Part shown: positions 39,434 to 45,731 of the stretch, one piece after another
How the letters are laid out: every line of letters begins with the position of its first letter
How positions within the stretch are numbered: the stretch's first letter is position 1
From: Candidatus Nitrosoglobus terrae
GTDB taxonomy: Bacteria; Pseudomonadota; Gammaproteobacteria; Nitrosococcales; Nitrosococcaceae
Reading direction: 5' to 3'
Assembly: GCF_002356115.1 (NCBI RefSeq)
Contig: NZ_AP014836.1
Coordinates: forward strand, 992,001 to 1,056,000
Length of the DNA stretch: 64,000 nt
The notes under the pieces: generated by a model
Told to the model about the DNA's origin: nothing
The model's database searches: none
What the model saw: only the letters and a program-made list of their open reading frames with translations
Translations under genes and position numbers: made by a program

Positions 39434-39455
39434 GAAAAGTTAGGGGAGGATAGAA

Positions 39456-40406
39456 ATGGCGAATAATATATTCAAGATAATAGGTTTTATGGCGTTGTTA
39501 GTCATCAGGCCGGTATTTGCAGTCGATCCGGAAAATGGTTGGTGGTGGAATCCTAGTCAGGCTGGAGTAGGTTATAACCTTGAAGTACAAAACAATACCG
39601 TATTTGTAGCCGTATTTATCTATGACAATAACGGCAACCCAACTTGGTATTCGGGATCGGGGAATATCAATCAAAACTTAAATCAAAATAACGATAATGT
39701 CACCATCAATTTACAACAGTCCACTGGCGGGCCTTGCTTAGGGTGTACTTATACCGCCCCTCAGACCAGTACTACGGATAAACAGCTTGCGCTAACCTTT
39801 GATCAAAGTGGCTCAACAGGTACGGCTGTTTTAGATGGCGTAACGACTCAAATCAAGCGGTTTAATTTTAATTTAGGCAGTGGCGCACAAAAGCTTGTAG
39901 GGGCGTGGACTATTGTGAGTTTACCGGTAGCTAGTGCATCAGGCCAGGCGGCTACGGGGGCGGGCACCAGTAACTATATTGTTTGTAGTAGTGTGAGCGA
40001 TCAGGGCGTAGTGAGCTGCACTGATGCGGCTAATAACCCCATTACTTTTTCCTCTAATGGAAGCACTAGCTTCCCCAGCTACCAAGGGGTGATTCCAACC
40101 TCTGGAGGAGAGAGTATCGCCTATCTTCTTAGGTTCCAAGGGCTTAATCATTTAGTGGGGGTTTCCGCGATGGTAGATCCAAATGCCTCTGTTGATGAGG
40201 TTGGTAATGTATTAAAAAATAGTACTAACTTAGCCTTAGCTCGGGGTTTTAGAGATGAAAGTGCAACCAGCTCTGCGCCAGCCTTTACTACAAACCCTCA
40301 GCCATCTCAAGATAATAACAATGGTTCTACTGGAACCATTAATGGCTTTACCTCTAATGCGGATGCAGCGTTGTCGAAAGCTTTCCAAGATGCCAATCAA
40401 TTTTAA
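39456..40406 (+). CDS. Secreted GWWWN-repeat family protein, copy 1
   Basis: A 316-residue exported protein: signal peptide (1-22, ending VFAV), an N-terminal beta-rich domain with NGWWWNPSQAGVGYNLEVQ and NPTWYSGSGN, a Cys pair in GGPCLGCTY, a middle beta domain, two more Cys in YIVCSS and VVSCTD, and an Asn/Ser/Thr-rich C-terminal tail. The W-rich motif with PTWY is found in many secreted proteobacterial proteins of unknown role. Residues about 24-143 are encoded by DNA identical to copy 2 at 43921-44886; the C-terminal 60 residues differ. GGGGAGG precedes the ATG. Likely surface or periplasmic; function not known. Confidence 0.8.
   Translation: MANNIFKIIGFMALLVIRPVFAVDPENGWWWNPSQAGVGYNLEVQNNTVFVAVFIYDNNGNPTWYSGSGNINQNLNQNNDNVTINLQQSTGGPCLGCTYTAPQTSTTDKQLALTFDQSGSTGTAVLDGVTTQIKRFNFNLGSGAQKLVGAWTIVSLPVASASGQAATGAGTSNYIVCSSVSDQGVVSCTDAANNPITFSSNGSTSFPSYQGVIPTSGGESIAYLLRFQGLNHLVGVSAMVDPNASVDEVGNVLKNSTNLALARGFRDESATSSAPAFTTNPQPSQDNNNGSTGTINGFTSNADAALSKAFQDANQF
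39525..39883 (+). repeat. Inverted repeat arm 1 (about 359 bp, identical to 44459-44817)
   Basis: By direct comparison these 359 bases are identical to the reverse complement of 44459-44817. The first 69 coding bases before it and the bases after it diverge, mostly at silent sites first. The arms lie inside two paralogous genes and flank about 4.6 kb. Confidence 0.9.
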
Positions 40407-40549
40407 AAACCCTAGATTTAAATTATGAGCAGGAGGGTTAGATTTTGTAACTTAAAAAGAGCCAATTCACATTTCCGCATAGTGATCCCAGTAGATTGTG
40501 CTTAAAAGGCGCTTTCTGTGCTCCGCCACGCAACATCCTTGTTGCTCTT

Positions 40550-41407
40550 TCAAAGTTGATTTAGGGGTAATTTAAGATAAGAGATACCGTTATCTTCTGG
40601 TAGGGGTAATTCTCCGCCTTGAATATTAATTTGTAGTGAGTGCAAAATTAACGGCGGTGGAGACGATATACGATCTCTTTCCGTCCTTTTTTGAATAAAT
40701 GTTTCCTTGCTTATTCGGCTATTAATTAAGAGATTGCAAGCTTTTTGCTCAGCTACCGTACTTTCCCATCGAGGTTGCCGTCCACTAAGCAGGTAGTCAT
40801 GGCCGGTAAATAGCCGAGTCTCTTCTGGGAGTTTGTAAATACGCTGAATTGAATTATACATTGCTTCTGCGCTCCCGCCAGGAAAATCTGCCCTAGCGGT
40901 GCCATAATCTGGCATCAGTAAGGTGTCTCCAACAAAAGCTACATTGGCTATAACGTAGGTAACACAAGCTGGGGTATGTCCTGGGGTGTGGAGGACCTGA
41001 GCTTCAAGAGAGCCAATTTGGAAATGCTCTTCATCAGCAAAAAGGTGATCAAATTGAGATCCATCTGTTTTAAACCCTGCGCCTAAGTTGAATAATTGAT
41101 TAAATCTTTTCTGAACTTGAATAATGCAATTACCAATACCAGTGCGGCCTCCTAGTTGTTTTTTTAAATAGCCGGCAGCGCTTAGATGATCAGAATGAGC
41201 ATGAGTTTCAAGAATCCACTCAACACTTAAATTATTTTTATCAATATAGTCAATCATTCGATTAACTATTATTGTGCTTGTTCTAGCTATTGCTGGATCA
41301 TAGTCAAGAATAGGATCAATAATAGCGCAATTATTATTAGGTTCGCAGATGATATAAGAAATAGCGGAGGTGTTGGGATCGAAAAAAGCCTGTATATTGG
41401 GTTTCAT
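40550..41407 (-). CDS. MBL-fold hydrolase, persulfide dioxygenase-like (Blh type)
   Basis: A 285-residue metallo-beta-lactamase-fold protein. Metal ligands: ETHAHSDHLSAAGYL (about 66-80), TPGHTPAC with His at about 138, the Asp in VAFVGDTLLMPDYGTARADFPGG and the late His in LFTGHDY. The DYGTARADFPGG motif marks the persulfide dioxygenase/Blh branch, which oxidises glutathione persulfide to sulfite with one Fe. That fits a cell with its own glutathione genes. No sulfide:quinone reductase or rhodanese is adjacent. It lies between the two inverted GWWWN genes. Confidence 0.87.
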   Translation of the reverse strand: MKPNIQAFFDPNTSAISYIICEPNNNCAIIDPILDYDPAIARTSTIIVNRMIDYIDKNNLSVEWILETHAHSDHLSAAGYLKKQLGGRTGIGNCIIQVQKRFNQLFNLGAGFKTDGSQFDHLFADEEHFQIGSLEAQVLHTPGHTPACVTYVIANVAFVGDTLLMPDYGTARADFPGGSAEAMYNSIQRIYKLPEETRLFTGHDYLLSGRQPRWESTVAEQKACNLLINSRISKETFIQKRTERDRISSPPPLILHSLQINIQGGELPLPEDNGISYLKLPLNQL

Positions 41408-41533
41408 AAGCGGTTTTTATCCTAACTTTTAGCTGTCAGCTTTCAATATTAAGATTAATATCATTATTAACAATTTTTTTCTACCTTTTTATATATGAGA
41501 TATTTTATATCTCTTTCATTTTCATTAATAAAT

Positions 41534-41573
41534 AAAAAAACAAGAAGAGGCAGCCCCATAAAGGCAAGCTGCC
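41534..41573 (-). terminator. Rho-independent terminator of tal
   Basis: On the minus strand GGCAGC (41568-41573) pairs with GCTGCC (41549-41554), followed after about eight bases by seven T (41534-41540). It begins 21 bases after the transaldolase stop codon. Confidence 0.65.
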
Positions 41574-41593
41574 AGCATAAACACCTTATTTCT

Positions 41594-42700
41594 TCATTTC
41601 TTCTTATTACTAATCCCAGCCAAAAGCGTATTATACGCATCAATAAATTTCTGAACCCCTTCCTTTTCGAGCTGAGCCGTCACTTGCTTAAAATCAACTC
41701 CTACTTGCGCAAGATCTGCAATAGTTCTTCCAGCCGCCTCTAAATCTTTCTCTATGGTTTCAGCAGCAACTCCATGATCAGCAAAAGCAGCAATAGTTTC
41801 TTCAGGCATCGTATTAATGGTATGGGGACCAATAAGAGGCTCGACATACATAACATCCCGATAGTTCGGATTTTTAGTACTGGTACTCGCCCAAAGCATT
41901 CTTTGCGCTTGGGCACCCTTAGCTTGTAGTTTTTTCCAACGATCGCTTTGAATAATAGATTGAAAACTTTGGTAAGCAAGCTTAGCATTTGCAATAGCCA
42001 TTTTTCCTTGTAGGGATTTTAGTTTGGCTATCAAAGCACTCTCTTTTTCATGGGAAATTCGCTGATCAAGCAGCTGATCAACCAATACATCAATTCGACT
42101 GATAAAAAAACTCGCTACTGAAGTAATATTATTTACAGATCGACCCGACTCAATGCGCCGTTCCAGTGCTCTAAGGTAAGCTTGAGCCACTGCTTCATAA
42201 CGTTCAACAGAAAACAACAGGGTAACGTTAATACTAATACCTTCAAATAATAATTCCTCAATAGCAGGGATACCCTCAGCTGTACCTGGGATTTTAATCA
42301 GTAAATTAGGACGAGAAACTTCTTGCCAAAGCCGGCGAGCTTCCTTAATAGATCCCTGAGTATCGTGAGCCAAATGAGGAGACACCTCAAGACTAATAAA
42401 ACCATCTTGACCCGATACCTTATCATAAAGGGGCTGGAGAAGAGTGCAGGCATCATGAACATCAGTGGTCACTAGTGCCTCATAAATTTCAGTAGGTGAG
42501 CGACCCTCTTGAATCAACGGATAAATCTGATCATCATAATCATGACTACCTGTAATTGCCTTATTAAAAATACTGGGGTTAGAAGTTACTCCTCGTAAGC
42601 CTTGTTTTTCAACACGCTGCTTCAGTTCTCCATTTTTAATCATGCTACGCGTAAGATCATCAATCCAATAGCTTTGTCCAAATTCAAGCAATTTTAGCAT
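41594..42700 (-). CDS. tal: Transaldolase
   Basis: A 368-residue enzyme of the non-oxidative pentose phosphate pathway, which exchanges dihydroxyacetone units between sedoheptulose 7-phosphate and glyceraldehyde 3-phosphate. LRGVTSNPSIFNKAI (about 35-49), the Schiff-base Lys136 in NLLIKIPGTAEG and INVTLLFSVERY are conserved. It belongs to the longer (about 360-370) class also found in actinobacteria and cyanobacteria, not the 317-residue TalB class. Its start codon overlaps the PAP2 stop by one base (TAATG), so the two are coupled. Confidence 0.95.
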   Translation of the reverse strand: MLKLLEFGQSYWIDDLTRSMIKNGELKQRVEKQGLRGVTSNPSIFNKAITGSHDYDDQIYPLIQEGRSPTEIYEALVTTDVHDACTLLQPLYDKVSGQDGFISLEVSPHLAHDTQGSIKEARRLWQEVSRPNLLIKIPGTAEGIPAIEELLFEGISINVTLLFSVERYEAVAQAYLRALERRIESGRSVNNITSVASFFISRIDVLVDQLLDQRISHEKESALIAKLKSLQGKMAIANAKLAYQSFQSIIQSDRWKKLQAKGAQAQRMLWASTSTKNPNYRDVMYVEPLIGPHTINTMPEETIAAFADHGVAAETIEKDLEAAGRTIADLAQVGVDFKQVTAQLEKEGVQKFIDAYNTLLAGISNKKK

Positions 42701-43389
42701 TACTCTTCTCCTCGTCTATTCTGATACTTAAGCTTAAATATTACCTGAATAAGGGTATCAAGACTAAAGACCCATATCAAGGCAACTAAAAAACCTCCCA
42801 AGACATCAGAAGGATAATGGGCTTGAAGATAAAGTCTTGAGCTAGCAACCAAAATGACTAGGGCACTCAAAAATATCGTTACTGGCCATCGCCAATGGGG
42901 CCAAGGCCAAATACGGCTGATGATTAGAAAGAGGCAGAGTGCAAAAGCTGTAATCTCAGAAGTATGCCCACTGGGAAAAGAGAAACCCGTATACTTTTGT
43001 AAAGGAGGAAATAAATCGGGGCGTTCTCTGTGTATAAAAAACTTTATTTTATGGTTGATAAAGCCAGCTCCACTAAAACCTACACTTAGGAGTATAGCTT
43101 CCAGATAGTAAGCATAGCGAAGCAGAAACCCAAAGATTACAATGCCCAGCGGAAAAAGAACAATATCAGATCCTAATGAAGTGACTATAAGAAAAAAATA
43201 AGTAAAAACGTCCGTTTGATGAGCAGCAAAAAAGGAAAGAATAGGTACATCAAACCAAAAATTTTCATGCTGATACACCGCGTAAGCGAGAATAACAAAA
43301 ACCCCTATCCCTAAACTAACAGCAGCGCCATGGACAAGATTAGGGATAATACGGTAAGAAGGTGGTTGCTTATGATATCTTTTTCTCAT
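42700..43389 (-). CDS. PAP2-family membrane phosphatase
   Basis: A 229-residue inner-membrane protein with about six membrane segments and all three PAP2 motifs: KFFIHRERPD (KxxxxxxRP), FPSGHTSE (PSGH) and SRLYLQAHYPSDVLGG (SRxxxxxHxxxD). The active site would face the periplasm and remove phosphate from a lipid phosphate, such as undecaprenyl-PP or phosphatidylglycerol phosphate. It heads the two-gene unit with tal. The substrate is not determined by sequence. Confidence 0.93.
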   Translation of the reverse strand: MRKRYHKQPPSYRIIPNLVHGAAVSLGIGVFVILAYAVYQHENFWFDVPILSFFAAHQTDVFTYFFLIVTSLGSDIVLFPLGIVIFGFLLRYAYYLEAILLSVGFSGAGFINHKIKFFIHRERPDLFPPLQKYTGFSFPSGHTSEITAFALCLFLIISRIWPWPHWRWPVTIFLSALVILVASSRLYLQAHYPSDVLGGFLVALIWVFSLDTLIQVIFKLKYQNRRGEE

Positions 43390-43440
43390 GTTACAGCTAC
43401 CTAGTATTGAATTAACAACAATTAATGACTGGAGGGAAGT

Positions 43441-43815
43441 GTGAAAAAAACAGAAAAATATCTAAATTTAGCTATTGTTACCGTATTAGCATTATCCTTA
43501 ACGGTAGGTTGTACTCGGGTTAGGAGAGAGAAACCAGAGAACTATGTCTCCGATTCTTGGATTACCGCTAAAGTTAGAGGTGCTTTAATGAAAAATACAC
43601 TGATTAACACAGCGAATATTCAAGTACTCACCTATAGACGGGTAGTACGACTAGGAGGTTCTGTAGATGATCAAGCGCAAGCTGATGAAACTATAAAAAT
43701 AGCTAAAGGTATTTTAGGGGTAAAAAGTATTAAAAATAAGATGGTTATAAAAAGTAAAGATAACAATAAAAATAGTAGTAAAGAAAACAATAATAAAGAG
43801 CATAGTAAAAAATAA
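43441..43815 (+). CDS. BON-domain lipoprotein
   Basis: A 124-residue lipoprotein with lipobox LTVGC (Cys24) and one BON domain: YVSDSWITAKVRGALMKN, NIQVLTYRRVVRLGGSV, DDQAQADETIKIAKGILGVKSIKNKMVIK. The C-terminus is an Asn/Lys-rich tail of about 20 residues. BON domains bind phospholipid and support envelope stability (OsmY, DolP). GTG start with GGAGGG directly upstream. It is divergent from the PAP2-tal unit, with about 50 bases between the starts. Confidence 0.9.
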   Translation: MKKTEKYLNLAIVTVLALSLTVGCTRVRREKPENYVSDSWITAKVRGALMKNTLINTANIQVLTYRRVVRLGGSVDDQAQADETIKIAKGILGVKSIKNKMVIKSKDNNKNSSKENNNKEHSKK

Positions 43816-43853
43816 GAACCCTAGCTAAGGAAGAAAGAAGGAAGAAAGGAAGA

Positions 43854-43893
43854 AGAGAAGCAGATAAGTTATTAAACCCCTAACTGCTTCTCT
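43854..43893. terminator. Bidirectional terminator between BON gene and GWWWN copy 2
   Basis: AGAGAAGCAG (43854-43863) and CTGCTTCTCT (43884-43893) form a perfect ten-base-pair stem in the gap between converging genes. An almost pure purine tract (43827-43860) precedes it. T-rich flanks are poor, so its strength is uncertain. Confidence 0.6.
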
Positions 43894-43920
43894 AAATTAT
43901 AAAATTTAACCTACTAACGC

Positions 43921-44886
43921 TCAAAAACCAAAAAACCCTTCTAAAGCATTCTTTACGGTAAGATAACCATTTGATATAGCTGTGCCTGCATCATCCGCTA
44001 CGTTACCAACAGTTACACCGGTATTACCCTGATTATTCTGAGGTGATTGAGGATTCGTAGTAGAAGTGGGTGCAGAGTTGGTTGCACTTTCATCTCTAAA
44101 GCCCCGGGCTAAGCTGGTGCTACTTGCTAATGCGCTAGTGATCTCACTGGTAGAGGCATTTGAATTTACCATCGCGGAAACCCCACTTAAATGATTAAGT
44201 CCTTGAAATACAAAAAGATAAGCGATACTCTCTCCTCCAGGGGTTGGAATCACTCCTTGGTAGCCGGTGGTTCCATTACTTGTAGAGGAGGAAAAAGTAA
44301 TGGGGTTATTAGCCGCATCAGTGCAGCTTACTACGCCCTGATCGCTCACACTACTGCAAACAATATAGTTACTGGTGCCCGCCCCCGTAGCTGTCTGTCC
44401 CGATGCGCTAGCTACCGGCAAACTCACAATAGTCCACGCCCCTACAAGCTTTTGTGCACCACTGCCTAAATTAAAATTAAACCGCTTGATTTGAGTCGTT
44501 ACGCCATCTAAAACAGCCGTACCTGTTGAGCCACTTTGATCAAAGGTTAGCGCAAGCTGTTTATCCGTAGTACTGGTCTGAGGGGCGGTATAAGTACACC
44601 CTAAGCAAGGCCCGCCAGTGGACTGTTGTAAATTGATGGTGACATTATCGTTATTTTGATTTAAGTTTTGATTGATATTCCCCGATCCCGAATACCAAGT
44701 TGGGTTGCCGTTATTGTCATAGATAAATACGGCTACAAATACGGTATTGTTTTGTACTTCAAGGTTATAACCTACTCCAGCCTGACTAGGATTCCACCAC
44801 CAACCATTTTCCGGATCTGCAGCAAAAACTGGTCTGATAACTAACAACGCCATAAAACCTATTATTTTGAACATATTATTTGCCAT
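43921..44886 (-). CDS. Secreted GWWWN-repeat family protein, copy 2
   Basis: A 321-residue exported paralogue of the protein at 39456-40406 on the other strand: signal peptide 1-22, the same NGWWWNPSQAGVGYNLEVQ domain and Cys pairs, and the same middle domain up to about residue 200. The last 90 residues differ and end in a different helical tail (AISNGYLTVKNALEGFFGF). DNA at 44459-44817 is identical to copy 1. GGAGGGG precedes the ATG. It is followed upstream, in tandem, by a decayed third copy. Likely secreted; role unknown. Confidence 0.8.
   Translation of the reverse strand: MANNMFKIIGFMALLVIRPVFAADPENGWWWNPSQAGVGYNLEVQNNTVFVAVFIYDNNGNPTWYSGSGNINQNLNQNNDNVTINLQQSTGGPCLGCTYTAPQTSTTDKQLALTFDQSGSTGTAVLDGVTTQIKRFNFNLGSGAQKLVGAWTIVSLPVASASGQTATGAGTSNYIVCSSVSDQGVVSCTDAANNPITFSSSTSNGTTGYQGVIPTPGGESIAYLFVFQGLNHLSGVSAMVNSNASTSEITSALASSTSLARGFRDESATNSAPTSTTNPQSPQNNQGNTGVTVGNVADDAGTAISNGYLTVKNALEGFFGF
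44459..44817 (-). repeat. Inverted repeat arm 2 (identical to 39525-39883)
   Basis: The counterpart of the arm in copy 1. The first mismatch lies at 44458 (opposite 39884); beyond it the genes differ by scattered substitutions. Confidence 0.9.
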
Positions 44887-44995: not shown

Positions 44996-45731
44996 TTATA
45001 AGTTATTAAAAAATGACTTAAACTTTTTATCAATAAATACCTTTATATTTTTGAAAATATTCAACAACGCTGTATCAGTATTAAGGGTTACAGAAGTATT
45101 GACTCCGCTTGTATCTCTAAAACCAAGCGCTACGACAGAGCTACTTTTTATGGCACGATTAATCTCAAACGGAGTTGCACTAGGGCTTACCTTTGCAGAA
45201 AAACCTACTAAGGCATTTAACCCTTGGAAACTAAGAAAATAAGCTATACTTTCTGTTCCAGACACTGAAATATTTCCTTGGAAACCAGTCGCCCCGTCAA
45301 TGGAAGAAAAAGTAATCTGGTGATTTCCTATATCTGTGCAGCTCACTCCTTCATTTACCCCCCCCTATAGTTTTATTAATAGTGCTACAGACGATATAAT
45401 TACTCATCTCTGCCCCAGTATCAATATTCCCCGATGAGTCATCAGGGACAGGTAAGCTAACGATAGTCCAAGCGCCTAGTAATCTTTGAGCCCTAGTACC
45501 TAAGTTAAAATTAAACCGCTGTATCCGAGTAGCTACGCCATCTATAGTAGCCGTAGCCGTTGATTCCTGACGATCAAATGTCAATACTAGTTGTTTACCA
45601 ATATCGCTTGTTTGGGGAGTTATATAACTACAGCCTAGACAAGGCCCACCTATAGATCGTTGTAAATTAATGGTGGCATTACTGCTATTTTGATGAGCTA
45701 TAAAGCTCATAACTTTGAATACATTATTCAT
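44996..45731 (-). pseudogene. Secreted GWWWN-repeat family protein, copy 3 (degenerate)
   Basis: Two frames together match copies 1 and 2. 45351-45731 gives MNNVFKVMSFIA, then jumps straight to ATINLQRSIGGPCLGCSY, so about 70 residues (end of the signal peptide and the whole W-rich domain) are deleted in frame. The frame then breaks at a run of eight G (minus strand; C at 45358-45365), giving a stop. 44996-45346 continues as SCTDIGNHQITFSS to the end. One G fewer would restore a 244-residue frame. Without a complete signal peptide it is unlikely to be secreted. Confidence 0.8.

Follow-up and report, generated by a model that had tools for sequence, protein, structure and literature searches.

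Recent partial gene conversion as the likely source of an identical tract in two inverted secreted-protein genes of Candidatus Nitrosoglobus terrae

Two paralogous genes for a secreted GWWWN protein lie on opposite strands of the 64-kb window (the whole stretch of Candidatus Nitrosoglobus terrae DNA that was analysed) and share a single identical tract of 359 bp within sequence that has diverged on both sides. This mosaic is best explained by a recent gene conversion of the RecA type between inverted paralogues of old origin, an explanation that we regard as very likely, based on comparisons of the sequences of the two genes, a third copy, and an orthologue in a related genome (G002). The evidence for conversion comes from one assembled genome of the genus. 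The copies and their segments are as follows.

39456 to 40406, plus strand: copy 1, secreted GWWWN protein, 316 aa (open reading frame; alignment with 10 relatives; AlphaFold model)
39525 to 39883, plus strand: putative converted tract in copy 1, 359 bp identical (realignment, dS, segmentation)
39884 to 40054, plus strand: putative older or partly converted layer in copy 1 (segmentation; 9 of 171 sites differ; pS about 0.2)
43921 to 44886, minus strand: copy 2, inverted paralogue of copy 1, 321 aa (open reading frame; alignment with 10 relatives)
44459 to 44817, minus strand: putative converted tract in copy 2, reverse complement of 39525 to 39883 (realignment; genome search for the tract)
44996 to 45731, minus strand: copy 3, degenerate paralogue, absent from the list of the first-pass annotation (open reading frames; alignment; pS)

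The first-pass annotation described two GWWWN genes on opposite strands that share an identical tract and are separated by about 4.6 kb. Realignment agreed, giving a tract of 359 bp and a distance of 4,575 bp between the inner ends of its two occurrences. The complete arms form a 791-nt inverted repeat that is 92% complementary and, besides weaker matches from the same gene family, is the sole long inverted repeat in the window. Both reading frames are intact, and their proteins are 82% identical. Copy 1 consists of a signal peptide (residues ≈1-22), two beta domains (≈28-155 and ≈172-266), and a disordered tail, where the two domains come from an AlphaFold model of low confidence (mean pLDDT 64.6). 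A good Shine-Dalgarno-like sequence precedes each gene (GGGGAGG for copy 1 and GGAGGGG for copy 2), so that neither copy looks silent. A promoter scan gave a result at chance level.

The exact tract occurs at only two places in the genome, and a further partial match of 72% corresponds to copy 3. In copy 1, the tract starts about one codon past the predicted start of the mature protein, with the likely cleavage site (VFA before V/A-D-PENGWWW, judged by eye) just ahead of it, and covers most of domain 1. Maximum-likelihood segmentation placed breakpoints at 39525, 39883, 40054, and 40316, where five- and six-segment solutions were equal by BIC. The earlier statement that the copies are diverged at both ends was confirmed: differences number 17/85 on the 5' side (39440-39524) and 0/359 in the tract (39525-39883), followed on the 3' side by 9/171 (39884-40054), 59/256 (40055-40316), and 68/124 beyond 40316. 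This stepwise climb in divergence on the 3' side, which begins with a single mismatch followed by another 38 identical bases, is absent from the first-pass annotation. The segment from 39884 to 40054, with about 5% divergence, appears to be an older layer of conversion or the margin of an earlier event that reached further. When the 128 differences were shuffled 20,000 times across the 942 aligned coding sites, runs without a difference reached at most 101, compared to the 359 observed. Moreover, the run takes in 41 of the 89 codons at which copy 1, copy 2, and the G002 orthologue show synonymous variation (P ≈ 1e-4).

Synonymous divergence, calculated by the Nei-Gojobori method, is strongly non-uniform along the pair. 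Between copies 1 and 2, dS is 1.02 in the 5' (signal-peptide) part, which comprises only 23 codons, 0.013 in the tract (120 codons), and 0.56 in the 3' part (114 codons); the sole difference behind the value of 0.013 sits in the codon at the tract edge. By contrast, comparison of copy 1 with the G002 orthologue gives a dS of 1.36 for the tract and of 1.41 for the 3' part, and copy 3 against copies 1 and 2 gives pS values of 0.59 and 0.54-0.60, respectively. Because divergence from both the orthologue and the third copy is high in the tract, the tract is not slow-evolving, and copies 1 and 2 were homogenised recently. Two signatures of gene conversion are present, namely a sharp-edged local collapse of synonymous divergence between the paralogues and no slowdown of the same tract relative to an orthologue or a third paralogue. 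The earlier reading of the mosaic as a mark of recent gene conversion is well supported by this profile, whose sharp edges and lack of constraint at synonymous sites are direct observations.

The same comparisons bear on other ways in which the tract could have arisen. If the DNA or protein of domain 1 were under strong constraint, the tract could have stayed identical without recombination, and no other part of the protein family is as well conserved as domain 1; however, at synonymous sites the tract has diverged from the relative and from copy 3 as much as other parts have, and we rejected constraint as the cause, leaving it a negligible probability. Recent duplication of the whole gene was likewise rejected, because alignment of the sequences outside the two genes is just ≈40-55% identical. 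In favour of a recent duplication followed by replacement of the 3' end from another paralogue, the family is multi-copy, and the genome carries several fragments and three other paralogues with open frames. This scenario is nevertheless very unlikely, since the copies are diverged yet homologous on both sides of the tract, including ≈24 bp past the stop codons, and since their 3' parts are mutually closest (pS of 0.28, compared to 0.54-0.63 to copy 3 or the relative's orthologue). The latter result implies that copies 1 and 2 arose as sisters in an old duplication and that neither has a foreign tail. Finally, one arm might have been over-written by the sequence of the other during assembly, and 359 bp does exceed common short-read lengths. 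The graded older layer past the clean tract is not expected from over-writing, and the genome is assembled in two contigs and is 99.98% complete; we judge an artefact to be slightly less probable still than replacement of the 3' end.

In the gene-conversion model, an old inverted duplication of a gene for a secreted beta-rich protein would have produced copies 1 and 2. A recent homologous recombination event would then have copied at least 359 bp from one copy into the other, possibly by strand-annealing repair or through a RecA-type event that left no net crossover, and an earlier, longer stretch ending near 40054 was probably also copied. The outcome would be a pair of genes in which most of the mature N-terminal domain is identical, while the signal-peptide codons, upstream regions, and C-terminal parts are still diverged.

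The arms enclose the following genes.

40550 to 41407, minus strand: MBL-fold sulfur/persulfide dioxygenase-like protein (PF00753; C-terminal part of NF040641, 395 bits, under the cut-off of 625)
41594 to 42700, minus strand: transaldolase (PF00923; NF002881 above cut-off)
42700 to 43389, minus strand: PAP2-superfamily phosphatase (PF01569)
43441 to 43815, plus strand: BON-domain lipoprotein-like protein (PF04972)

Domain searches agree with the four gene identities proposed earlier, with the dioxygenase falling below the NF040641 cut-off. To the left of the arms are crtC-like, cytochrome, and pyridine-nucleotide oxidoreductase genes, and to the right are addB/addA-like nuclease-helicase genes. 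The adjacency of the PAP2 and transaldolase genes is common to three larger-genome relatives. G002 contains the order addA-addB / TAL-SDO-SDO / crtC-cyt-lpd in the same relative orientations as the window; this block lacks a GWWWN gene, and the G002 orthologue is located elsewhere in that genome. It is probable that family members arrived or multiplied at this site in the lineage of the window. G002 has two tandem copies of the MBL-dioxygenase gene (L069 6932-8935), compared to a single one at this place in the genome of the window, which carries a second, 52% identical gene at G000:C1:1492379. Two S8-like protease genes in tandem (L054 15330-19545; 685 and 679 aa) also lie in the G002 block; their proteins have long identical stretches, and they are likely another conversion or recent duplication pair.

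Besides conversion, the first-pass annotation proposed that the arms could recombine and invert the enclosed segment, and the geometry of this proposal is correct: the 3' ends point inward, the tract lies in the same frame in both copies, and a crossover would swap the C-terminal parts. Inversion is mechanically possible: a reciprocal crossover in the tract would flip the enclosed genes and yield two hybrids behind the two upstream regions, and the sequence itself makes plain that both would be in frame. A stronger claim is that the arms also recombine reciprocally, such that the segment is inverted at a detectable level in the population and the C-terminal parts are swapped. Population inversion is compatible with conversion. 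RecA-dependent recombination between long inverted repeats is generally known to invert DNA, and the 359 bp of perfect inverted homology in one frame, with the 5' ends outside and the 3' ends inside, would leave the swapped proteins intact. On the other side, no inverted junction was observed; the TAL/SDO orientation relative to addAB and crtC-cyt-lpd is the same as in G002, which indicates that no net inversion took place; the neighbouring genes examined included no recognisable recombinase gene; and Shine-Dalgarno-like sequences on both copies do not fit a silent-cassette design. We consider population inversion unlikely. A fixed inversion was rejected by the synteny with G002, and the assembled orientation of the segment is ancestral, because it matches that of a block without family members. 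More speculative, and distinctly less probable, is a slow RecA-driven shuffling device, in which conversion would keep domain 1 identical and the arms recombinogenic, and repeated inversion would exchange C-terminal domains between two differently controlled secreted proteins. If inversion did occur, the pair would be a device for surface variation, something not expected of a free-living nitrifier.

The GWWWN protein had no hits in Pfam or NCBIfam, a best E of only 0.013 in PHROGs, and no sequence relative in the PDB. Fold comparison assigned no fold, where the best PDB match had E of 2.3e-3 and TM of 0.16 and partial matches to avidin-like barrels had E > 0.03. Each of the other five genomes in the taxonomic family had matches to the protein (only short and domain-level ones in G005), as did one other among 274 sampled gammaproteobacterial genomes and two further contigs; a plasmid search returned no relative. 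Three other members with open frames are present in the genome of the window, along with several fragments interrupted by stops. Decayed fragments, some with several stops, lie at G000:C1 1141831, 522748, 322095, and 447589 (L004, L009, L010, and L011). In G002, four members form a direct cluster (L037 8400-14550; G002:C1 ≈1734388-1740472), one of them within a 1103-aa open frame that carries a long C-terminal extension. Copy 3 has lost the signal peptide and GWWWN core in frame, and its frame break lies beside a run of eight G (45358-45365). This run could in principle slip, but a phase-variable gene is unlikely given the missing secretion signal. Thus, this is a narrow birth-and-decay family, in which conversion is unsurprising.

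As the evidence stands, the tract reflects ordinary genome evolution, a routine process in a little-studied family. The pair clearly exemplifies partial gene conversion where inverted copies lie close together, in a narrow family of secreted proteins from ammonia oxidisers that are probably acid-tolerant; identical arms of this kind can mislead assembly and orthology calls.

Several known systems resemble parts of this arrangement. NpdA S-layer proteins have been reported in Nitrosococcus and Nitrosoglobus, with npdA genes beside gsp genes (PMC10765051). Like the GWWWN proteins, NpdA is exported and probably belongs to the same bacterial group. A link was not adopted, in that the neighbours here are crtC-like, MBL, TAL, PAP2, BON, and addAB-like genes and no gsp genes adjoin. 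In the surface-layer genes slpA/slpB of Lactobacillus and sap of Campylobacter fetus, inversion switches which gene stands behind one promoter. Those systems share with the present pair inverted gene copies whose common identical block flanks a segment, and inverted identical arms in two genes are present here as in such switches. Unlike them, both copies here have ribosome-binding sites, and only the assembled orientation is seen, also in G002, the one relative with the syntenic block. An on/off switch is argued against by the good ribosome-binding sites of both copies together with the lack of a recognised recombinase gene nearby.

Bacterial paralogues are well known to undergo gene conversion, and outer-membrane genes are often involved in short-term cases (PMC6053082). 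Conversion of the tufA-tufB type likewise affects old duplicates with a tract of near-zero synonymous divergence; however, the genes in that study were homogenised over their full length, whereas conversion here is partial and concerns close inverted copies in a narrow secreted family. Antigen cassettes undergo the same process, which usually alters the variable part (PMC4534519). The silent-cassette conversion of vlsE and Anaplasma (PMC4534519) resembles the present case in being segmental and in acting on a surface or secreted family with decayed copies. In contrast to those systems, it is the conserved domain that is homogenised here and not the variable end, both main copies look expressible, and the setting involves no host immunity.
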